A DNA stretch of 35,181 nt from a virus: IMG/VR virus record IMGVR_UViG_3300021962_000325, positions 1 to 35,181 of that record; one strand, written 5' to 3'. Positions 8,307-29,995 of the stretch are shown here, one piece after another. The notes beneath the pieces are model-generated. The model made no database searches and was not told where the DNA came from. It saw only the letters and a program-made list of their open reading frames with translations. Each line of letters begins with the position of its first letter. Position 1 is the first letter of the stretch. The position numbers and the translations under genes are program-made.

Positions 8307-8561
8307 GTGTCTGTAAAAAGATTAGTCCCTTTACATGCAGTAGCTTTAGAAGATGATCCAGTATCAGCACGTATTGGAGATATTTATTACAATACAATAT
8401 CGGAAGAGCTAAGATTCTATGATGGAACACAATGGAATCCAGTTAATTCAGGAGCAGTTACAGGACTATTAGATCACGTTCATACATATGATGGATCTCT
8501 GTTCTCTGTAGACTCAGTAGAAATTCCAGCCTCTGGTGTTGTTGACGGCGGTACACCATAA
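8307..8561 (+). CDS. Short fibre-connector-like protein, GTG start
   Basis: An 84-residue protein with an IGDIYYNTISEELRFYDG module (about 23-40), a common phage fibre head or attachment element, and a C terminus ending DGGTP. The GTG is preceded by AAAGGGGG at about 6 nt. Its stop overlaps the start of the next gene by one base (TAATG). A 65-residue protein ending DGGTI lies in the same coupled position before the other Mtd-N-like fibre (16494-16691), so the two pairs are equivalent arrangements. Probably docks or caps the downstream fibre. Confidence 0.65.
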   Translation: MSVKRLVPLHAVALEDDPVSARIGDIYYNTISEELRFYDGTQWNPVNSGAVTGLLDHVHTYDGSLFSVDSVEIPASGVVDGGTP

Positions 8562-10837
8562 TGTCAGTTACAATAAGAGTAAAAAGAGGAACTGCTACAC
8601 AATGGGCGGCCCGTACAACACCATTATTGTCTGGTGAGTTTGGCTATGACTTAACAAATAAAATAACTAAAATAGGAGACGGAACAACTCTATGGGCTAG
8701 TCTTCCTTCTATAGACCCTTCTTCTAATGGTACTAATACTGGAGATATCACATTTGATGGCGTACAGATTATTGGTGCTGGAACAGCATCTGGTGACGGA
8801 TATGGCAATGGAACAATAGAGTTAGTTCCAGATGCAGACATTAATACAGATCAGTATTTAATTATTGATCCTACAGCTCCAAACCACATTCATATTCGTG
8901 GTGGTGGAACTCAAGATGCTTCAGGTGCAGATCTATTTATTGGTGGAGAAAGAAATAATGTTCGTGTATCTGACGGAGCAAGATCTGTATATATTAGTAC
9001 AAGACCAGAAACAATTATTAACACTTATACAAATTTAAACGAAACAAGCAACACTTCTTTTGTAGTTAGCAATACAGCAAATATTTATGTAGGCGATACG
9101 ATGTTTTATCCAGGCGGAGATATAGTCACTGTTGATTCTGTTACAACAGACTCACCAAGTTCTGGTCTACAAACTATTACAGCAAATTTAAATGGAGAAC
9201 CAGCATCATTTGTTGGAGGAGCAGCTCATGTATTTAGTCATGAAGAGTCTTGGGATAATTACTGGCAATTTGGGTCAGATGGAGTTTTACATGGTCCAGG
9301 AGGTGGAACGCTAATTGTTTCTGGAATTAGTGGAGAGCCAGGAGACGATGTGTTTGCTATTGTTGCAGATCAAAACTTAGTATTACAACATGGTGTAGGT
9401 GGAGCATACTTAAATGATTCAACCATTGCAAACAACCATATTGCAACTATGGGAGATATTGCGGATGCAAATGAGTATACAGACCAGGCAGTTGCAGGAT
9501 TAGGTAACTCTCTTCCAGAGAACTATGTGCCAATATCAGATGTTGGCGCAGTAGACGGTGTAGCTTCATTAGATTCAAATGGAAAGATTCCAGACTCAGA
9601 ACTTGCATCAGAAGTTACAAGAAATACTGCGGCTCAAACTTTAACAAATAAAGTAATTGGTCTAGGCACTGGAATTACTTCTATCTCGGCTGTAGATAAT
9701 ATTGAGGGTCTAGCTGGTCAGAATAATATACCAATTTATCAAGCAGGGCTAGACAGAGGCGGAAGAATAAACATTAGCTCCCTTGGCGTTATATCAGTAG
9801 CAACTTCTGGAATTGGATATGTTTCTGGTTTAGCAACAAATGCTGGCGGAACAAGATTTAATATAACTGTAGGCGGAAATGCTATTAGCGGAACATTGGT
9901 AGAATTTAATGCAGCTTTAACAGACGGAGACTTTGCAACAGAGTCTTATGTTTCTACAGCGATATCTAATTTAATAGACACTGCTCCAACAACATTAAAT
10001 ACTTTAAATGAACTCGCAGCGGCTATAAATGATGACGCATCTTTTGCATCTACAGTCACAACGGCATTGGGTGCAAAAGCACCAATTGCTTCACCAACTT
10101 TTACTGGAACAGTTTCAGGTATTACAAAATCAATGGTGGATCTAGGAAATGTTGATAACACTACAGATGCAAATAAGCCAGTATCAACTGCAACACAGAC
10201 AGCATTAGATTTAAAGTTAAACCTATCAGATCCTTCGGTTGATTATTATATTACAAACTCTGGATCTGGAGCTTATCTAGTAAACGGTGTATCTAACGGA
10301 TTAATCACTTTTGAAAAAGGTAAGAAATATAGAATACATGTTAATGCTACAGGACACCCATTCTGGATTCAAACAGTGTCAGGTGCTTATAGCTCAGGCA
10401 ACGTATATTCAACTGGAATAACAAATGGCGGAGCACAAGCAGGTCATATCCTAGTAGAGCTTCCTCAAGATGCCCCAGATAATCTTTATTATGCTTGCCA
10501 GTTCCATTCATCCATGAGTGGATCAATTTCTGTGCAGTCTGATAATACAATAACAATAAATTCTAAATCTGCAGGCTACACTATTTTGCCGATAGACTCT
10601 AATAGACTTATTGAAATGTCTGCAGGCGGAACATTAACAATAACAGATTCCGCTTCTTTCCCTGTAGGATTTACATGCGATATTTTACAGACAGGTGCTT
10701 CACAAGTTACTATAGCTGGAACTTCATTTACTCCTAATGCCACCCCTGGATTAAAATTACGTACTCAGTGGAGCAGCGCTACACTTATTAAACGAGCACT
10801 TAATTCTTGGGTTGTATTGGGCGATCTGAGCGCATAG
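8561..10837 (+). CDS. Long tail fibre: Mtd-N-like head and a cupredoxin-like domain with type 1 copper ligands
   Basis: A 758-residue fibre. Residues 3-50 (VKRGTATQWAA... KIGDGTTLW) match the N-terminal domain of major tropism determinant-type receptor-binding proteins. The middle carries modules also found in the 13996 gene (ANEYTDQAVAGLGNSLPENY; TLNELAAAINDDASF). Residues about 560-665 look like a cupredoxin: His599 in GHPFW, then YYACQFHSSMSG with Cys646, His649 and Met652. The His-Cys gap (47) and C-x2-H-x2-M spacing equal those of plastocyanin and amicyanin ligands respectively. A C-terminal beta domain follows. No reverse transcriptase or variable-repeat pair of a diversity-generating element is seen in the window. 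Confidence 0.8.
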   Translation: MSVTIRVKRGTATQWAARTTPLLSGEFGYDLTNKITKIGDGTTLWASLPSIDPSSNGTNTGDITFDGVQIIGAGTASGDGYGNGTIELVPDADINTDQYLIIDPTAPNHIHIRGGGTQDASGADLFIGGERNNVRVSDGARSVYISTRPETIINTYTNLNETSNTSFVVSNTANIYVGDTMFYPGGDIVTVDSVTTDSPSSGLQTITANLNGEPASFVGGAAHVFSHEESWDNYWQFGSDGVLHGPGGGTLIVSGISGEPGDDVFAIVADQNLVLQHGVGGAYLNDSTIANNHIATMGDIADANEYTDQAVAGLGNSLPENYVPISDVGAVDGVASLDSNGKIPDSELASEVTRNTAAQTLTNKVIGLGTGITSISAVDNIEGLAGQNNIPIYQAGLDRGGRINISSLGVISVATSGIGYVSGLATNAGGTRFNITVGGNAISGTLVEFNAALTDGDFATESYVSTAISNLIDTAPTTLNTLNELAAAINDDASFASTVTTALGAKAPIASPTFTGTVSGITKSMVDLGNVDNTTDANKPVSTATQTALDLKLNLSDPSVDYYITNSGSGAYLVNGVSNGLITFEKGKKYRIHVNATGHPFWIQTVSGAYSSGNVYSTGITNGGAQAGHILVELPQDAPDNLYYACQFHSSMSGSISVQSDNTITINSKSAGYTILPIDSNRLIEMSAGGTLTITDSASFPVGFTCDILQTGASQVTIAGTSFTPNATPGLKLRTQWSSATLIKRALNSWVVLGDLSA

Positions 10838-10838
10838 A

Positions 10839-11474
10839 ATGCGTAGAAGAACTGGCAAATATAAAAGGAGTGGCGTAAGAAAAGTTAATGTCCCTAATTT
10901 GTCAGGACTAACAAGATCTCAAGCAATAACAGCAATTCAAGCAGCTGGACTTAATTATTCAGAATCAACAACAAATACATCAGATTCAGGATTAACAAAT
11001 TATATTCAATCTCAAGATACATCTAGTGAAGATACAGTTTTAATTGGAACTAGCATTTCTTTTGTTTATTATAATTATGTTGCACCCGTTTATTATGCAC
11101 CGCCACAATATTACGCAGCTCCACAATATTATGCAGCACCTCAGTACTACGCTGCACCTCAGTACTACGCTGCACCCCAGTACTACGCTGCACCTCAGTA
11201 CTATGCAGCACCTCAGTACTACGCTGCACCTCAGTACTATGCAGCACCTCAGTACTACGCTGCACCTCAGTACTACGCTGCACCCCAGTACTATGCAGCA
11301 CCTCAGTACTACGCTGCACCAGTTTATTATGCATCTCCAGGATGTACTGTTGGTGGAACCTGTGAAGTAACCGCATCTTGCAGTTTATGTAATTGTTGTC
11401 CAGATCCATGTATAAGACTTGGAAGATATAACTCGTCATGTGCATGTACAAATCTAGGATCATACTTATGTTAA
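10839..11474 (+). CDS. PASTA-domain fibre protein with twelve PQYYAA repeats and Cys-rich tail
   Basis: A 211-residue protein in three parts. A basic start (MRRRTGKYKRSGVRK) precedes a PASTA domain (about 16-78: VNVPNLSGLTRSQAITAIQ, AGLNY, GTSISFVYY); PASTA domains bind peptidoglycan fragments in Gram-positive kinases and penicillin-binding proteins. Residues 89-160 are twelve exact PQYYAA hexapeptides flanked by PVYYA variants. The last 46 residues hold ten Cys (SCSLCNCCPDPC, SCAC), unusual among Cys-poor fibre proteins and suggesting disulfides or metal binding. It starts one base after the previous stop. Function is inferred: a cell-wall-binding or crosslinkable virion filament. It is followed by assembly-like, Cys4 and glycosyltransferase genes. 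Confidence 0.8.
   Translation: MRRRTGKYKRSGVRKVNVPNLSGLTRSQAITAIQAAGLNYSESTTNTSDSGLTNYIQSQDTSSEDTVLIGTSISFVYYNYVAPVYYAPPQYYAAPQYYAAPQYYAAPQYYAAPQYYAAPQYYAAPQYYAAPQYYAAPQYYAAPQYYAAPQYYAAPQYYAAPVYYASPGCTVGGTCEVTASCSLCNCCPDPCIRLGRYNSSCACTNLGSYLC
11103..11318 (+). repeat. Twelve tandem 18-bp repeats encoding PQYYAA
   Basis: Twelve in-register 18-bp units. The first two use CAATAT codons; the rest are near-identical CCTCAGTACTACGCTGCA with only synonymous changes (CCC for CCT, TAT for TAC, GCA for GCT). Such homogeneity indicates recent expansion by slippage or recombination, so copy number may vary between strains. Confidence 0.97.
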
Positions 11475-19834: not shown

Positions 19835-22009
19835 ATGGCAACACAATTAATCGATTTAGGAAACATTCGCTTCATTTGGAAGGGCGACTGGGTACAGGCA
19901 AACACATACGAACTAAATGACGTAGTTCGTTATAACAATATTGTATGGGTATACATTAATCAAATCCCATCAGCAAATAATCTTATTACAAGTACAGTTT
20001 ATTGGTCACGCATGGTTGAGGGATCAGAAATTCCTCCAACAGAGAATCAAGCAGGTAAGGTTCTTAAGACCGATGGCACACTAACATTTTGGTCTGACTC
20101 ATTTGATACATTCTTAATTGGTGCAGACATTACAGACTTTATTACAGCCGCAGACTTAACCGACGTAGCTCTTGGTATTGAAGGATCCTCTACATCTTTC
20201 GTTCAAACAGCATTGGTTAACACAGGATCTGGTGCATCATCTTCTGCAGACTTTATTGCGTATACATCAAATGGTACAAATGAGTCTGGTTGGATAGACA
20301 TGGGTATTACTAACGGATCATTTAATGATCCAACATTTTCACTTACAGGACCTGGCGACGGATATGTATTTATGTCTGGAGCAATCGCTGGTATAGTCTC
20401 TGTAGATCAGTATAGCGTTGCGGGTTCAAACCTAAACCTTATTACTGATGGTCCACATGCAATGATTGCTGGAGTCATCTTTGATTTAATTCTTCCAGTA
20501 GCTCCAACATTAGAGGGTCGCTATACAGTTGTTTCAGCACCAAGCACAACGCAGATTGTTGTTGCAACACCTGCAGGATATACTTCTGGAAACGTGGCCT
20601 TAACAAACGTTATTAACTCTCAAATAAATAAATTTACAGGCGATGGCAAGCTAGTTTTTGCAACTGATTCAACAGGTCTTTCAAACAACATTGTTATTGC
20701 TTCTGGTGGTTTGACAAGCGGTAACGAACAAATGATTTTTACTCCAGATGATGGAATTGAAATTTATGACGAAATCTTTTTTGGAACTGGCGCAAAAGCA
20801 TTTAATATAAATGCAGAGCTAACTAATGCTGCCGCAGTATTTGAATTAAATGGATCTCCTTATGCTCAAATAGCTATTCATAATAATTCAGCTAACTCTT
20901 CTACAGATTATATTGCATATGCAAATAATGGAGATGACTTATCAGGCTGGATTGATATGGGTGTTACAGGATCTTCATTCAGCCAAGCTACATTCGGCAT
21001 TACGGGTCCAAATGATGGATATATTTTTTATGAAGCACCATCTGGCACAACAGGTGCAGGAAATCTTGTCTTAGCAACAGGTGCCAATGGATCGGAAAAC
21101 AAGATTGTATTTGCAGCAGGCGGATATGATTCTGGTAATGAGCAAATGGTCATTATTCCAGATGAGCGTGTACACATTGAAATTCCAACTCCTTCTACAT
21201 CGCCATCAACAGGTGCATTAACAGTAGTAGGTGGCGTTGGTATTCAAGGCGACGTAAATATTGCAGGCGACATTACGTTTGGAGGCGCTGGAACAACTCT
21301 CACAACGACAACCCTTACAGTAACAGATCCAATCGTTCGTGTAGGATCAGGAAACACATCAGATGCTATAGATCTAGGGCTTGTTGGAGAGTACACATCT
21401 GGCGGTGTAGTTAAATACGCAGGATTAGTACGTGATGCCTCAGACGGTGTAGTAAAGATATTTAAAGATTCAACCGTAGCTCCTTCTGCTGGAGTAGTTA
21501 ACTTCTCAGGTGCAGGACTTGCGTATGCAGATCTGCGAACTGCTGGGATTACAGCAACAACACTTAATACTTCTGGTTTAATTACAGCCCCTGGCGGATT
21601 AACAGCCTCTGGAGCAGTATCATTAAGCGGAACAGTAGATATTCAAGAGATGCGTGAACAAATTGTAGATGTTACATTGGCATCAAACGTAGGAACACTT
21701 GATTGGTCGCTAGGAAACATTTACTATATTGGTACAGCACCAACTGGTAATATGACATTTAATGCAACAAATGTTCCATCAGATTCAGCAAAGGTAATGA
21801 CAATTAACATTGTTGTTACACAGGGATCAACTGGTTATATTCCAACAACATTCCAGATTGCTGGAACTTCTCAGACAATTAGATGGTCAGCAGGTGCGGC
21901 TCCAACTGCAACATCATCTGCTGGTAAACTAGACATATTTACATTTACATTACTTAGAACTTCAGGTGGAGCCTGGATAGTTTTGGGTTCATACAACTTA
22001 AACTTCTAA
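19835..22009 (+). CDS. Large tail fibre of the duplicated module, copy 1
   Basis: A 724-residue fibre. The N-terminal 60 residues (FIWKGDWVQANTYELNDVVR) resemble a carbohydrate-binding module of the CBM5/12 type. Then come NQAGKVLKTDGTLTFW and two copies of a domain with ADFIAYTSNGTNESGWIDMG (about 122-180) and TDYIAYANNGDDLSGWIDMG (about 343-401). Next is STSPSTGALTVVGGVGIQGD, as in fibres with registered N-to-C markers, and a C-terminal VTQGSTGYIPTTFQIAG domain shared with the 16691 product. It is nearly Cys-free. The homologue is at 26837. Likely a structural tail fibre binding host glycans. Confidence 0.85.
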   Translation: MATQLIDLGNIRFIWKGDWVQANTYELNDVVRYNNIVWVYINQIPSANNLITSTVYWSRMVEGSEIPPTENQAGKVLKTDGTLTFWSDSFDTFLIGADITDFITAADLTDVALGIEGSSTSFVQTALVNTGSGASSSADFIAYTSNGTNESGWIDMGITNGSFNDPTFSLTGPGDGYVFMSGAIAGIVSVDQYSVAGSNLNLITDGPHAMIAGVIFDLILPVAPTLEGRYTVVSAPSTTQIVVATPAGYTSGNVALTNVINSQINKFTGDGKLVFATDSTGLSNNIVIASGGLTSGNEQMIFTPDDGIEIYDEIFFGTGAKAFNINAELTNAAAVFELNGSPYAQIAIHNNSANSSTDYIAYANNGDDLSGWIDMGVTGSSFSQATFGITGPNDGYIFYEAPSGTTGAGNLVLATGANGSENKIVFAAGGYDSGNEQMVIIPDERVHIEIPTPSTSPSTGALTVVGGVGIQGDVNIAGDITFGGAGTTLTTTTLTVTDPIVRVGSGNTSDAIDLGLVGEYTSGGVVKYAGLVRDASDGVVKIFKDSTVAPSAGVVNFSGAGLAYADLRTAGITATTLNTSGLITAPGGLTASGAVSLSGTVDIQEMREQIVDVTLASNVGTLDWSLGNIYYIGTAPTGNMTFNATNVPSDSAKVMTINIVVTQGSTGYIPTTFQIAGTSQTIRWSAGAAPTATSSAGKLDIFTFTLLRTSGGAWIVLGSYNLNF

Positions 22010-22020
22010 AGGAGAAATAA

Positions 22021-22944
22021 ATGCCATTTGTAAGCAGCATAAGAGGCTCTTTTGGGCCACAATCAAGATCTAAACGTGTTGGAAGTAAGTTTATGATTTC
22101 TGGTGGTACAATTTCTACCGCTGGCGGTTATAGAACACACACTTTTACATCTGGCACAGAAAATTTTGCTTTAGATTCATACGGCCTTCCAATTAACGCT
22201 GAAATATTTGTTGTTGCTGGCGGAGGCGGCGGAGGCGGAGCACATGGAGGTGGCGGAGGCGGCGGAGGAATTATATATTCAAGCAACTATTCATTAGCTG
22301 CAAATCCGTATTCAGTTGTTGTTGGAGGTGCAACTTCTACTATAAATAGTTATGGTGGTCAGGCTCCTAATGGTAACAATAGTTCTTTTGGAAGTTTAAC
22401 AGCAATTGGTGGCGGTGGAGGTTCTGGAACTAACTCAAATTTACCAGGAGCTAATGGTGGATCAGGCGGTGGAGGCGGAGCATGCTGGTCACCTTGCTCA
22501 GGAAGTGGTCAGAGCGGAGGTTCTGCGATTCAAACATCTCCTGCTGGATTTACTGGTTACGGAAATTCTGGCGGTAGAGGATCAAACCACCCGTCAGCAT
22601 CACAACACGCTTCAGGCGGTGGAGGCGGAGCAGGCGCAGTTGGACAAGCTTATCCAGGTTCTGGTGGCACCAATGGAGCAGGAGGATCTGGTATAGCAAA
22701 TTCTATTTCTGGCTCTAATACCTTTTACGGCGGCGGAGGTGGCGGTGGAGGACATAACGGTGGAGCAAATACTCCAGGAGCAGGTGGAAACGGTGGCGGT
22801 GGAACAGGTCATTCCGAATCCAATAGAACATTAAATCCTCCAAGTAGCAATTTAGGTGGAGGAGCTGGTGGCCAAGGCCACGGCTCTGGAGATATAACAT
22901 CACCTGGTGGATCTGGAGTAGTAATAGTTAGATACCAGATTTGA
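22021..22944 (+). CDS. Polyglycine-rich tail adhesin, copy 1
   Basis: A 307-residue protein that starts MPFVSSIRGSFGPQ, has a beta-rich domain to about residue 70, and then many Gly runs (GGGGGGGAHGGGGGGGG and similar) separated by short variable Ser/Asn/Pro/Ala segments. The end is SGVVIVRYQI. This is the design of polyglycine-II sandwich adhesins such as gp38-type tip proteins of T-even-like phages, in which the loops between Gly helices contact the receptor. A homologue with the same N and C termini but different loops is at 29066. Its stop overlaps a TTG start for the next gene. Confidence 0.85.
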   Translation: MPFVSSIRGSFGPQSRSKRVGSKFMISGGTISTAGGYRTHTFTSGTENFALDSYGLPINAEIFVVAGGGGGGGAHGGGGGGGGIIYSSNYSLAANPYSVVVGGATSTINSYGGQAPNGNNSSFGSLTAIGGGGGSGTNSNLPGANGGSGGGGGACWSPCSGSGQSGGSAIQTSPAGFTGYGNSGGRGSNHPSASQHASGGGGGAGAVGQAYPGSGGTNGAGGSGIANSISGSNTFYGGGGGGGGHNGGANTPGAGGNGGGGTGHSESNRTLNPPSSNLGGGAGGQGHGSGDITSPGGSGVVIVRYQI

Positions 22945-24039: not shown

Positions 24040-24323
24040 GTTAAAGCCTTAATTATTGCAGCTGATGCTAATATAGACCATCCTATATTAAACAAGATTA
24101 TTGTAGGCAGGGTCTTTACTGTAGAAGACCAAATTAAAGCTAAACTAGAAACTAAAGCAAATATATATAGCCACCACCATTGCTTACCAAATAAAAGCCC
24201 TGGAAATATAATAGAAAGCTTGGTCATAAAAGCAAAAAATTCTACAGTATTTGGCCTATTCCAATATGATCTATCTTTCATTCTAGATAAAGCATATACC
24301 CACTCATACCTATTCTTTGCCAT
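24036..24323 (-). CDS. Small three-span membrane protein of the halogenase cassette
   Basis: A 95-residue protein with a basic/aromatic N terminus (NRYEWVYALSRMKDRSYW) and three hydrophobic stretches at about 29-45, 50-66 and 72-93. It overlaps the halogenase end by 14 nt and the following gene's start by 4 nt, so all three are co-translated. It could anchor the pathway at the membrane, move a product, or act as a superinfection-exclusion factor; no family is recognised. It carries no lysis hallmark. Confidence 0.7.
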   Translation of the reverse strand: MAKNRYEWVYALSRMKDRSYWNRPNTVEFFAFMTKLSIIFPGLLFGKQWWWLYIFALVSSLALIWSSTVKTLPTIILFNIGWSILASAAIIKALT

Positions 24324-25920
24324 AAAATGTGTCCTCTAAAAATTTTTTAAGGCTAGGAGACGATTCTGCAGCCTTATTCCATTTAGCTTTTTTGTTTTCC
24401 CATATTTCAGAAATGGCATCCGCTTCTGATAAGTAGTCACGCTTATATCTATAAGTCATATTTGCAATCCTATTGTCGTTTATCATTTGAAGATTCATTC
24501 CTGTTGCTATATATGTAATACCAGCCATTCCGTATGGATGAAACCATTCTTCCATATAACGCCCAATAATATCATAGAAGGCCCCAGCCTTCGTCCTATT
24601 TGGGGTATACGGATCATTTGAAATTTCATCTTTAAATTCTTTAGTATTAATGTCTTTCCAGTATTCTGTGTCATCTCTATGCGATAGGGCATAGTGAAGG
24701 GCAACAAATTTAGAAAATTGATCAAATAGGTCACGAGTACTTACATTATACATATCCCTATCAAATTGAGATATTTCTCCACGCTGTAGTATGTCTATAA
24801 GATTAAATAAAAATTCATGAACACTAAACAGTCCGTTGCTCTCAAGTGGCTCAATAAAGCCAGCCGATAAGCCAATAGCTACAACATTTTTAACAAAAGT
24901 TCTTTTATGTATTCCAACACGCATAGTTATTTCTTTAAACTCAAGAGCATCTACCTGCTCCTTAGTTCGTGGAATAACCATCTTGTCCGACATTAGATAT
25001 CTTTTAAATTCTTCTTTTGCTTCTTCTGGAGTTACAAATTTATCAGAGTATACATAGCCAGTTCCTATTCTAGACCATAAAGGAATATTCCAGCACCATC
25101 CGTTTTCAATAGCTGTACAGTTAGTAAAACCTTCTAATTCAATATCTTTATTTTCATATTCAATTCTAGTAGCCCAAGCCCTATTGTTTGGTAGCATTTT
25201 GGATAGCGAGTCAAATGGTTCATTTAAAGCCTTATCTAGCAAAAGACTTTTAAAGCCAGTACAATCAATAAATAAATCAGCTTCAACAATATCTTCATTA
25301 TCTAGGACAAGGTGCTTAATTCCGTTTTGGTCGTTTGGTGTTTCTAAAACAGTTGCTATAATATGTTTTACTCCATTAGGAATACAATAGTTTTCTCTAA
25401 GCCACACTCCAAATTTAGTTGCATCAAAATGATACGCAACATCGTTAGCGGCATCAAAGTGATCAAAATCCCCTGAATTATTTAAAGAAAATTTATTGTT
25501 TTCAAATAAAGCCGAAGCTGGGAAAAGGCATCTTACAAAATCCTCAATTGGAGTTTCTGGATAAAAATATTTTTTTAATTGCCAGTCAAAAAATGGATTT
25601 CTATTGTTAATAACATCAGCCTGTCCAAATGGATAATGAAATGACCCGCCATCCTTTTTATAAAAATCTGTAAATTTAATACTTAGTTTTAAAGAGGCAT
25701 CGGTTTGTTTGAAGAAGGTAGATTCATCAAGCCCTATATATCTGGTCCATGTTCTTATTCCACCAATAGTTGACTCTCCTACACCAACAGTAGGAACATC
25801 TTTAGACTCAATGACTGAAATGTCTTTATTCGGAAAAGCTTTAATTAATGTAGCAGCAGTCATCCAGCCAGCAGATCCGCCTCCAACTATTACTATTTTA
25901 TCGGTTTTCATAATATCCAT
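24310..25920 (-). CDS. Flavin-dependent halogenase (tryptophan-halogenase family, viral type)
   Basis: A 536-residue FADH2-dependent halogenase oxidising halide to hypohalous acid that is guided to a catalytic Lys. The FAD site is GGGSAGW (13-19), followed by VGVGEST (45-51). The catalytic Lys78 in ASLKLSIKF corresponds to Lys79 of PrnA/RebH. The family signature WCWNIP (275-280) is intact, and PLES with Glu360 matches the PrnA Glu346 region. All key residues are present, so activity is expected, with a host or separate flavin reductase needed. The cyanophage enzyme VirX1 is a known viral relative that iodinates many substrates. First gene of the leftward cassette, with its own promoter. Start is ATG at 25920; ATG 25911 is possible. 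Confidence 0.9.
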   Translation of the reverse strand: MDIMKTDKIVIVGGGSAGWMTAATLIKAFPNKDISVIESKDVPTVGVGESTIGGIRTWTRYIGLDESTFFKQTDASLKLSIKFTDFYKKDGGSFHYPFGQADVINNRNPFFDWQLKKYFYPETPIEDFVRCLFPASALFENNKFSLNNSGDFDHFDAANDVAYHFDATKFGVWLRENYCIPNGVKHIIATVLETPNDQNGIKHLVLDNEDIVEADLFIDCTGFKSLLLDKALNEPFDSLSKMLPNNRAWATRIEYENKDIELEGFTNCTAIENGWCWNIPLWSRIGTGYVYSDKFVTPEEAKEEFKRYLMSDKMVIPRTKEQVDALEFKEITMRVGIHKRTFVKNVVAIGLSAGFIEPLESNGLFSVHEFLFNLIDILQRGEISQFDRDMYNVSTRDLFDQFSKFVALHYALSHRDDTEYWKDINTKEFKDEISNDPYTPNRTKAGAFYDIIGRYMEEWFHPYGMAGITYIATGMNLQMINDNRIANMTYRYKRDYLSEADAISEIWENKKAKWNKAAESSPSLKKFLEDTFYGKE

Positions 25921-26525: not shown

Positions 26526-26837
26526 ATGCCAGTTACTTTTCCAGCAACGCCATCTGTAGGTGACACCTACACTCTTGGCGAAATTGCATGGGAATGGACA
26601 GGCGATTATTGGCAACAGATTCCAGGATCAAATCTTGGATCATTTTATGGATTTAAATATCTTCCAGTTTCTGGACAATTGTCTTTAGAAATTATAGAAG
26701 ATGGAACAACAGAAGTAGTACTGCCAGATCAAAATCGTAGAAGTACTGATTATCGTGAATGGACATTTACAACACGAGAATTAGAATTCGAATGGTCTGA
26801 AGCAGACAAGTCTAATCTTATAGTGAGGGTAAACTAA
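26526..26837 (+). CDS. Short adhesin-module protein, copy 2
   Basis: A 103-residue homologue of the 19469 product. It keeps the opening module (VTFPATPSVGDTYTLGEIAW, then EWTGDYWQQ), the central SFYGFKYLPVSGQLSLEI, the acidic EDGTTEVVLPDQNRR region, and the end WTFTTRELEFEWSEADKSNL. A Gly-rich linker present in copy 1 is missing here, explaining the shorter length. GGGAG is 8 nt before the ATG. The stop overlaps the next start by one base (TAATG), again tying it to the large fibre. Confidence 0.75.
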   Translation: MPVTFPATPSVGDTYTLGEIAWEWTGDYWQQIPGSNLGSFYGFKYLPVSGQLSLEIIEDGTTEVVLPDQNRRSTDYREWTFTTRELEFEWSEADKSNLIVRVN

Positions 26838-29056
26838 TGGCAACGCAAATTATTAATCTTGGATCAATCCGCTTTATTTGGAAAGGGGATTGGGATACTG
26901 AAGTAGAGTATAAGTTAAACGACGTTGTTCGATATAATAATATTGTTTGGATTTATACAAATGAAGTCCCATCAACTGGCGAAGTCATTACAGATACAGA
27001 TTACTGGACACGTATGGTGGAAGGTTCTGAAATCCCGCCAACTGAAGGTCAAGCAGGCAAAGTATTAAAGACAGACGGAACCCTCACATTCTGGTCTGAT
27101 TCTTTCGATACATTTTTAATTGGCGAAGATATTACAGACTTTATTACTGCTGCAGATTTAACAGATGTAGCTTTAGGTATTGAAGGATCTTCAAATAGTT
27201 TTGTTCAAACAGCCCTTGTGAATACAGGAGCTGGTTTATCATCTTCCGCCGACTTCATTGCGTATGCCTCAAATGGTACAAATGAGTCAGGCTGGATCGA
27301 TATGGGTATTACTAATCAATCTTTTAATGACCCTGCATTTTCGTTGACAGGACCTGGCGATGGATATGTATTTATGTCAGGTGCTATTGCGGGAGTTGTT
27401 ACAGTAAGTCAGTATAGCGTTGCGGGCTCAAGCCTAAATCTTATTACTGGAACTCCACATCAAATGATTGCTGGAGTGATCTTTGACTTAATTCTTCCAG
27501 TGGCTCCGACCTTAGAAGGTCGATATACAGTTGTTTCAGCACCAACTTCAACACAGGTTGTAGTTGCAGTTCCCGCAGGATACACAGCAGGAAACATTGC
27601 TTTAACATCAGTTATTAACTCACAGGTTAACAAGTTTACAGGAGATGGCAACCTAGTGCTTGCAACAGATTCTACTGGTTTATCTAATAATATTATTATT
27701 GCGGCGGGTGGACTACAAAGTGGTGCCGAGCAAATTGTTATTTCAACAACAGAAGTAGACTTCTCACAAAACGTAAATATCGTAGGAGATACAGCTCTTA
27801 CTGGAACAGTATATGTAGGTCAAAATGCTAGAACATTTGAAACTTCTGCAGACTTAACAAATCCAGGTGCGGTATTTGAATTAAATGGTGAGCCGTTTGC
27901 ACAGGTTGCAATCCATAACCAATCAGCAAATTCATCAACAGACTTTATTGCTTATGCCGATACTGGAAATGATACCGCTGGCTGGATCGATATGGGTGTT
28001 ACTGGCTCAACATTTTCACAGACAACATTTGGAATAACAGGACCACATGATGGTTATATATTTTATGAAGCACCAGCAATAACTACTGGAGACGGAAATC
28101 TAGTAATTGCTACTGGAGCAAATGGATCAGATAACTCAATTGTTCTCGCAGCTGGAGGATTTGATGATGAAGAAAATGTTCAGGTTGTAATTACACCACC
28201 AAAAACTGGTGTACGTCCTGGCAATATGCATATTGAAATTGCAACACCATCAACTTCACCATCTACTGGTGCAGTAACAATTGTTGGAGGAGTCGGTATC
28301 CAGGGTGATGTAAATATCGCAGGCAATCTTTCCTTCGGTGGATCTGGTTCACAAACTGGTGTACAAACTCTCGAAGTGGCTTTTCCAATCGTATTCGTTG
28401 CTGATGGCAATACAGGAGATGCAATCGATTTAGGACTTGTTGGTGAATACGTGTCAAGCGGAACAAAATACGCTGGAGTATTGCGTGATGCATCAGATGG
28501 AGTATTTAAATTCTTCAAGGGTGCAACAACAAAGCCAACTAATACACTTGACTTCTCCCAGGGTTCATTAACATACGCAGATATTAGAACTGGCGCTATT
28601 ACTTCGGGATCAATTACAGCTACAGGAACAGTAGGAATTACTGGAGGGCTTACAGCTACTGGAACAGTATCTCTTAGCGGTACTGTAGATATTCAAGAAT
28701 TAAGAGAAAATCTAGTTCCTGTTACATTATCTACAAATACAGCTACATGCGATTGGGCACTTGGAAACATTTATTATATTTCAACGGCTCCAACAGGAAA
28801 CATGACATTTAACTTTACTAACATGCCAACAGATAATGATAAGGTTATGACAGTAAACGTACTTGTAACTCAAGGCTCAACTGGATATCTTCCAACAACT
28901 ATTCAGATTAGTGGAACAAATCAAACAATTCGTTGGCCAAATGGTCAGGCTCCGCTACCAACATCTTCTGCAAATAAAATAGATGTATTCTCATTTACTT
29001 TCATTAGATCAGGAAGCAGTTGGATTGTTTTTGCAAACTCAAATCTAAACTACTAA
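26837..29056 (+). CDS. Large tail fibre of the duplicated module, copy 2
   Basis: A 739-residue homologue of the 19835 fibre with the same domain order: an N-terminal FIWKGDWDTEVEYKLNDVVR module, GQAGKVLKTDGTLTFWSDSF nearly unchanged, two SGWIDMG/AGWIDMG domains, a STSPSTGAVTIVGGVGIQGD block and the QGSTGYLPTTIQISG C-terminal domain. Differences concentrate in the centre (residues about 295-330, where copy 2 has VDFSQNVNIVGDTALTGTVY) and the part after DVNIAGN. The near-invariant N-terminal 200 residues suggest a conserved attachment or assembly function. Confidence 0.85.
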   Translation: MATQIINLGSIRFIWKGDWDTEVEYKLNDVVRYNNIVWIYTNEVPSTGEVITDTDYWTRMVEGSEIPPTEGQAGKVLKTDGTLTFWSDSFDTFLIGEDITDFITAADLTDVALGIEGSSNSFVQTALVNTGAGLSSSADFIAYASNGTNESGWIDMGITNQSFNDPAFSLTGPGDGYVFMSGAIAGVVTVSQYSVAGSSLNLITGTPHQMIAGVIFDLILPVAPTLEGRYTVVSAPTSTQVVVAVPAGYTAGNIALTSVINSQVNKFTGDGNLVLATDSTGLSNNIIIAAGGLQSGAEQIVISTTEVDFSQNVNIVGDTALTGTVYVGQNARTFETSADLTNPGAVFELNGEPFAQVAIHNQSANSSTDFIAYADTGNDTAGWIDMGVTGSTFSQTTFGITGPHDGYIFYEAPAITTGDGNLVIATGANGSDNSIVLAAGGFDDEENVQVVITPPKTGVRPGNMHIEIATPSTSPSTGAVTIVGGVGIQGDVNIAGNLSFGGSGSQTGVQTLEVAFPIVFVADGNTGDAIDLGLVGEYVSSGTKYAGVLRDASDGVFKFFKGATTKPTNTLDFSQGSLTYADIRTGAITSGSITATGTVGITGGLTATGTVSLSGTVDIQELRENLVPVTLSTNTATCDWALGNIYYISTAPTGNMTFNFTNMPTDNDKVMTVNVLVTQGSTGYLPTTIQISGTNQTIRWPNGQAPLPTSSANKIDVFSFTFIRSGSSWIVFANSNLNY

Positions 29057-29065
29057 AGGATAAAA

Positions 29066-29995
29066 ATGCCATTTATTAATAGCGTAAGAGGATCATTCGG
29101 CTCCCAAGGCAAAATAAAAAATGCAACCAACAAAGGTCTTGGCGGAACTGGTGGAACAATTACAAACGCTGGAGGCTATAAAATACATACTTTTACAACA
29201 CCTGGAAGCTTTACTTTTAACACAGAAATTTCTGGAGCAATAGAGTATTTAATTGTCGCAGGTGGCGGAGGCGGAGGAGGCCAAGTTGGTGGCGGTGGTG
29301 GCGCTGGAGGGCTTATATATTCTTCACAATATCAAGTAAATACTTCAAATTATTCAATAGTTGTAGGCGCAGGCGGTGTTTCAAGCAATCCAGGACAAGT
29401 AGGAAATTATGGAAATAATTCATCTGCATTTGGTGTAACAGCTATAAGAGGCGGTGGCGGTGGGGCTCATCCTTCAAGCAATAATTATCCACCAGCAACT
29501 GGTAACGACGGACTTGGCGGCGGATTTGGCAGACCTGGCGGTTCAGGTGGTGGAGGCGGAGGAGACGATACAAGTACTGGCAGACCTGGTGGTTCAGGAA
29601 CATCTGGGCAAGGTAACAATGGAGGAGAAGGAAGGCCTGGATCTGGAGGAGACAATTGGTCTGGCGGCGGTGGCGGTGGGGCAGGTAGCGCAGGAACAAA
29701 TGCTAATAACACTGTAACTAATGGCATAGGCGGAGAAGGTGGAAACGGTTTACAGTATTCTATAAGCGGAAGCTCTCAATTTTATGCAGCAGGTGGAGGA
29801 GGATGTGCATCTGGTGGTTCTTGGGTAGGCTCTATGAAAAATGGAATCGGCGGAATGGGATCATCTAACTCTAGTACAAATAGTCAAAATAGAAATGGTA
29901 TAGCAAATACTGGTTCTGGCGGCGGAGGAATTAGAGACTCTGGAACAACAGGCGCTGGTGGATCTGGAATTGTTATAATTCGTTATCCACTTTAA
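29066..29995 (+). CDS. Polyglycine-rich tail adhesin, copy 2
   Basis: A 309-residue homologue of the 22021 product. The start MPFINSVRGSFGSQ and the end SGIVIIRYPL match copy 1, as does the first Gly run (VAGGGGGGGQVGGGGGAGG). The segments between later Gly runs differ almost completely (for example DDTSTGRPGGSGTSGQ here and ACWSPCSGSGQS in copy 1), the expected pattern for receptor-contacting loops of a polyglycine-II sandwich. AAAGGA precedes the ATG by 5 nt. It closes the second module. Confidence 0.85.
   Translation: MPFINSVRGSFGSQGKIKNATNKGLGGTGGTITNAGGYKIHTFTTPGSFTFNTEISGAIEYLIVAGGGGGGGQVGGGGGAGGLIYSSQYQVNTSNYSIVVGAGGVSSNPGQVGNYGNNSSAFGVTAIRGGGGGAHPSSNNYPPATGNDGLGGGFGRPGGSGGGGGGDDTSTGRPGGSGTSGQGNNGGEGRPGSGGDNWSGGGGGGAGSAGTNANNTVTNGIGGEGGNGLQYSISGSSQFYAAGGGGCASGGSWVGSMKNGIGGMGSSNSSTNSQNRNGIANTGSGGGGIRDSGTTGAGGSGIVIIRYPL

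Follow-up and report, generated by a model that had tools for sequence, protein, structure and literature searches.

A predicted type 1 copper domain in a phage tail fibre and in the baseplates of ocean cyanomyoviruses

Blue copper proteins are familiar as carriers of electrons and as enzyme domains. The 35,181-base virus record analysed here (the window), which belongs to an uncultured aquatic phage, encodes a 758-residue tail fibre in which four residues near the C-terminus are arranged like a type 1 copper ligand set, which raises the question of whether they mark a metal site and, if so, what a virion would do with one. The earlier note had pointed to His599, Cys646, His649 and Met652 of this fibre, and these residues lie exactly where it placed them, with the His-Cys distance of 47 residues and the C-x2-H-x2-M spacing that it gave both exact; the flanking strands that it quoted are likewise found in the fibre sequence. 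The span assigned to the feature (10340-10540) contains the motif, but the domain proved wider, covering residues 556-660 (Table 1). The whole fibre contains just two Cys, 11 His and six Met, and from its composition 3e-6 occurrences of the exact ligand spacing are expected, while a relaxed cupredoxin pattern arose in 18 of 100,000 shuffles and was absent from the other large open reading frames tested in the window. Because the motif had been chosen post hoc, we placed weight on fold and conservation as the stronger evidence.

The domain lies in a protein that is recognisably a tail fibre. Matches to PHROG tail fibre and minor tail protein families run along residues 371-756, and the sole Pfam match of the fibre is an N-terminal Mtd_N domain, which scores above the family cut-off of 26.3 bits and is probably the attachment end. 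The repeat shaft that precedes the cupredoxin includes stretches 71-76% identical to Microbacterium and Arthrobacter phage proteins. Modelling of residues 548-758 showed the cupredoxin followed by another beta domain, so that it sits between the shaft and a C-terminal knob. This knob resembles the C-terminal domain of the capsid spike of Pseudomonas phage Pa223 (VIA Z 13.0, 1.5 A over 90 residues) and a baseplate-region protein of Klebsiella phage KP1 (VIA Z 9.5), and it was also found in proteins from three other loci (L144, L150 and L151) with no adjoining cupredoxin.

Table 1. Features of the fibre gene, in window coordinates (AF2, AlphaFold2).
Feature	Position	Strand	Evidence
Tail fibre gene, 758 aa, cupredoxin domain near C-terminus	8561..10837	+	ORF; Pfam; PHROG
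N-terminal Mtd_N domain, residues 5-43	8573..8689	+	Pfam PF18454, E 6e-8, 32.8 bits
Tail-fibre repeat shaft, about residues 451-559, before cupredoxin	9911..10237	+	PHROGs 1197, 2631, 454, 3030
Cupredoxin domain, residues 556-660	10226..10540	+	AF2; VIA; Foldseek; profile search against PDB
His599 codon, predicted copper ligand 1	10355..10357	+	lost only with the whole set, one exception
Cys646 codon, predicted thiolate ligand	10496..10498	+	position and conservation
His649 codon, predicted copper ligand	10505..10507	+	position and conservation
Met652 codon, predicted axial ligand	10514..10516	+	conservation; Gln in one relative (L027)
C-terminal knob, residues 662-755, spike/baseplate beta-domain type	10544..10825	+	AF2 of residues 548-758

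An alignment of 41 viral copies of the domain was used as input both for AlphaFold2 and for a profile search of the PDB. The resulting model of residues 556-660 is confident (mean pLDDT 96.6, pTM 0.88) and, together with the PDB matches listed, describes a Greek-key beta-sandwich of about 100 residues. His599 lies in the loop after the strand at 34-40 (domain numbering), Cys646 ends the strand at 86-91, the penultimate one, and His649 and Met652 occupy the loop preceding the last strand, so that the ligand order His...Cys-x(n)-His-x(n)-Met and the loop layout are those of cupredoxins. All 50 of the solved-structure matches listed are cupredoxin-fold proteins; in VIA-align a domain of copper nitrite reductase scored Z 10.7 (1.9 A over 88 residues) and rusticyanin Z 10.6 (2.7 A over 96 residues), and Foldseek gave 1.3e-5 to cupredoxins, with AcoP, rusticyanin and plastocyanin ranking high. 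The profile search returned mainly cupredoxins (9cck, rusticyanins, amicyanin, plastocyanins, auracyanin and azurins) with individually weak E-values, the best being 0.004, and aligned all four fibre residues one to one with the copper ligands of rusticyanin. Only the profile gave such matches, a single-sequence search of solved structures returning none. The Pfam family Copper-bind (PF00127) does not match the fibre protein, and matches six of the 41 relatives with a best E-value of 0.002. Laccase matches in the same profile search were discounted as ligand matches, since their aligned His appears to be the one in a GHxFW stretch, which is not a ligand. The fold check proposed in the earlier note thus came out in its favour on the predicted structure, and residues 556-660 almost certainly adopt a cupredoxin fold; a chance motif is ruled out by fold, profile and conservation. 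Beta-sandwich proteins of Pithovirus LCPAC302 and LCPAC304 and Marseillevirus LCMAC201 also match the model (BFVD A0A481Z6J5, A0A481YVH3 and others); giant viruses may carry relatives.

The ligand set had been described as amicyanin-like, which holds for the Cys-x2-His-x2-Met loop; the fold as a whole is closer to other cupredoxins, the nearest whole-fold relatives among the matches listed being the N-domain of copper nitrite reductase, rusticyanin, AcoP, auracyanin and plastocyanin. Amicyanin was aligned by profile comparison over just the last 26 residues and is not similar over the whole domain, its first His and its Cys are about 39 residues apart as against 47 here, and no gene for its partner, methylamine dehydrogenase, was recognised in the window. 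Plastocyanin shares the cupredoxin fold and the 47-residue His-Cys distance, but its loop is Cys-x2-His-x4-Met and it serves photosynthesis, whereas the fibre domain is embedded in a tail protein. The best whole-domain matches, rusticyanin and the cupredoxin domain of Hyphomicrobium copper nitrite reductase (2dv6), share the His...Cys...His...Met order at 17-20% identity; both act in electron transfer, unlike a domain in a virion, and the Cys-His-Met loop of rusticyanin is longer. The second shell differs from that of azurin and plastocyanin, in which the first His is followed by Asn; the fibre has Pro (Pro600), as do nearly all copies of the domain, and His-Pro is found in multicopper oxidases. 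This residue predicts a high-potential site favouring Cu(I), a property that would suit a tightly bound, static copper no less well than electron transfer.

These likenesses bear on whether the site could be redox-active, cycling between Cu(I) and Cu(II) so that the fibre or baseplate could sense oxidising surroundings, or an electron carrier of the host at the cell surface, and change shape in response. The full type 1 ligand set, the electron-transfer character of the nearest folds among the matches listed and a His-Pro-Phe second shell that recalls high-potential multicopper oxidase sites all speak for such a role. We nevertheless consider it unlikely, as none of the window's genes could be recognised as a redox partner or as handling copper, and as placements as different as a fibre tip, the gp9 connector described below and secreted bacterial proteins are easier to reconcile with a generic module than with a trigger.

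Whether the ligands are maintained was assessed across 174 distinct copies of the domain. Of these, 152 carry the complete set (HCHM), 19 carry FAVM, FATM or FAIM, one is truncated, and partial sets are confined to two copies (one NCHM and one HCHQ). Copies just 18-60% identical to that of the window keep the ligands as a set while most other positions vary, and the His and Cys codons of ligand-bearing copies use both synonymous forms freely. Some seeds of the pattern scans, including ones used for IMG/VR and for the genome collection, contain ligand residues, so the conservation counts from those scans taken alone are inflated; this bias is offset by the phage set found by tblastn and by a search with the ligand-less sequence of RN05-S as query. 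The latter used six seeds, one ending in the Ala that replaces Cys and the others lying away from the ligands, and its copies, together with the window and RN05-S sequences, divide into 21 HCHM and 19 F-A-x-M with no intermediates. When the ligand columns are masked, the tree groups the ligand-less copies in a single nested clade (SH-aLRT 97) whose nearest relatives are the ligand-bearing copies of Bellamy and L223, although the few columns leave overall resolution poor. Hence the ligands do not vary freely, as the earlier note had required of a genuine site, but are kept as a set or, in one clade, lost as a set. At L027, a fibre that bears the ligands is followed by a gene (L027:4940-6313) with a second copy, in which Gln replaces the axial Met as it does in stellacyanin.

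The same pattern allows a further reading to be weighed, namely that the fold was recruited as a metal-free beta scaffold, serving as an Ig-like spacer or glycan-binding module in which the ligands are inherited and idle. The domain is modular, like the Ig-like domains of phages, and the ligand-less clade clearly works without H-C-H: there His, Cys and His are replaced together while Met and the other conserved positions are kept, which points to a structural role independent of the metal site and means that copper is not indispensable. Against this reading stand the retention of the ligands as a set at such low identities and the extensive synonymous turnover at the His and Cys codons. As the pattern is all or none, His, Cys and His behave as a unit, which argues for a working metal site rather than a relic. 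We therefore regard idle ligands as quite unlikely for this fibre, so that the relic raised in the earlier note is disfavoured here, though it seems to describe the ligand-less clade. The members of that clade are cyanophage-type tail fibre repeat proteins (L183 and IMG/VR loci L189-L218).

The domain is not confined to fibres. In all 12 cyanomyovirus genera sampled, gp9, which connects the baseplate wedge to the tail fibre, ends in this cupredoxin domain with all four H-C-H-M ligands kept. The genera are represented by S-SSM5, Syn19, S-RIM8, ACG-2014d, P-RSM4, P-SSM4, P-TIM68, S-CAM8, S-P4, S-8S29, MA01 and Bellamy, the last with a protein that bears the annotation baseplate wedge initiator or tail fibre. 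The C-terminal 105 positions of the cyanophage gp9 family (PHROG 677), which carried no cupredoxin annotation, match the fibre domain with an E-value of 2e-17, and individual gp9 proteins match it by hmmsearch with E-values from 4.6e-18 to 1.7e-33. The two proteins thus share a homologous C-terminal domain but differ ahead of and around it: gp9 has a T4_gp9_10_N head domain (present in the one protein tested, that of S-SSM5), the fibre an Mtd_N domain, repeats and a spike-like knob. A more distant copy of the H...C-x2-H-x2-M arrangement occurs in most of those phages in the gene after gp9 (T4-GC 399, encoding a YHYH protein), for which the whole protein is significant in most phages while some single stretches are weak. 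On its sequence, this stretch is a candidate for a second copper site in the same baseplate. The stretch is of the YYHCAYHRYMSG type, and the gene lies at L171:6331-10488, with its counterparts in other cyanomyoviruses at L172-L180.

More broadly, tblastn, with its limited sensitivity, found the domain in 298 of 50,697 phage records, the phages named in the tallies being those of Synechococcus and Prochlorococcus, marine and Pelagibacter phages and one Actinomycetia phage; nearly all named matches in the phage collection are aquatic. IMG/VR holds at least 538 loci with the domain, and a scan of the genome collection gave 16 loci, mostly from Flavobacteriia and OCS116/Rhodobiaceae, several of which encode proteins with CHRD or secreted-repeat domains. 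No homologue was found in the plasmids searched, and no copper operon among the neighbours of the bacterial homologues. The module is thus carried by tail fibres and baseplate proteins and, in bacteria, by a few secreted proteins; in P-SSM2 it occurs in a protein with collagen repeats, which precede it. We also considered that the domain might be a metabolic gene, a phage plastocyanin, and rejected this because it lies inside structural proteins. Cyanophage PetE corresponds to T4-GC 225 (PMC3037559). A 168-residue gene of Synechococcus phage S-SCSM2R (L169:5803-6309; PQ898602.1) that is annotated as PetE encodes the domain studied here and is likely a false plastocyanin call; its neighbours include large genes annotated as FhaB and peptidase S8 and other non-photosynthetic genes.

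An aquatic distribution, in waters where trace metals are scarce, would suit a decoy, or Trojan horse, in which a host receptor for copper uptake or cuproprotein binding mistakes the loaded domain for its own ligand and so aids adsorption. Such a decoy appears distinctly unlikely, since type 1 sites hold copper tightly and would release it slowly, since the gp9 domain sits in a baseplate connector and not in the fibre tip, and since the window fibre has a knob of its own beyond the domain. Its precedent is iron: T4 gp37 binds it through HxH motifs, and the same has been proposed for marine phage fibres (PMC11705849). Like the site proposed here, those motifs place a metal in a phage tail fibre, but they bind iron by paired His, with neither a cupredoxin fold nor a Cys or Met ligand. 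The window fibre also contains a single HIH (His109 and His111; 8885-8893, + strand), similar to the HxH by which T4 gp37 binds iron.

The site might instead hold another native metal such as Zn(II) in the same pocket, or bind copper merely as a scavenger on the virion. Cupredoxin sites can indeed bind zinc in vitro. The YHYH domain of the adjacent cyanophage baseplate protein is predicted to bind zinc (PMC7824862). However, the axial Met, which a zinc site could do without, is better conserved than any of the other three ligands, and we rate this the least probable of the readings weighed.

The reading that we favour, at a probability of roughly 0.5, is that a type 1 copper-binding cupredoxin has found a second use on the virion, as a beta module locked by metal, as the predicted fold and the ligand pattern suggest. 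Its parts differ in strength: on the same grounds the domain very likely binds a metal, whereas copper is probably, with somewhat less assurance, the native one. Aquatic phages would have placed this mobile module in host-facing tail fibres and baseplate connectors, where a single copper ion would be held by His599, Cys646, His649 and the axial Met652; the shaft is presumably trimeric, which would give three sites per fibre. Host cytoplasm contains almost no free copper, so the simplest order of events would be that the fibre assembles without metal in the cell and takes up copper at or after lysis. Copper would then cross-tie the Cys-His-Met loop to the loop of the first His, stiffening the beta-sandwich and protecting the thiol, which would give the knob a robust stalk outside the cell. 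That stabilisation is what the phage gains from copper is a reasoned guess.

In the open-access literature searched, we found no paper that joins cupredoxins with phage tails, virions or cyanophage tail proteins; the fold family is known, and its virion or tail context is undescribed in that literature. If the reading is correct, a ligand-conserved blue copper domain in virions, including the baseplate connector of well-studied ocean cyanophages, would be new chemistry for phage tails and would tie viruses to copper in the way that the iron hypothesis ties them to iron. Tentatively, aquatic tailed phages, common ocean cyanomyoviruses among them, could be copper proteins with many type 1 sites in baseplates and fibres, serving either stability or a redox-based sensing of the host surface, and could amount to a pool of organically bound copper in water that has gone unrecognised. 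Genes reported as plastocyanin in phage surveys may likewise be structural. The idea is testable now, as cultured phages carry the domain and the natural ligand-less clade offers a ready comparison.

The host of the window phage is probably an actinobacterium, as judged from a portal protein 57-60% identical to those of Streptomyces phages and from a PASTA-domain protein, encoded directly after the fibre gene (10839-11474, + strand), that may bind actinobacterial peptidoglycan; with such a host, the domain would span phages of unrelated hosts. Elsewhere in the window, a tryptophan halogenase gene (24310-25920, - strand; Pfam E 8e-103) lies among the tail genes. Two related glycine-rich proteins (22021-22944 and 29066-29995, + strand) are each encoded directly after a long gene (19835-22009 and 26837-29056), and the products of these long genes share PHROG 5906 at their C-termini, indicating a duplicated two-gene unit.
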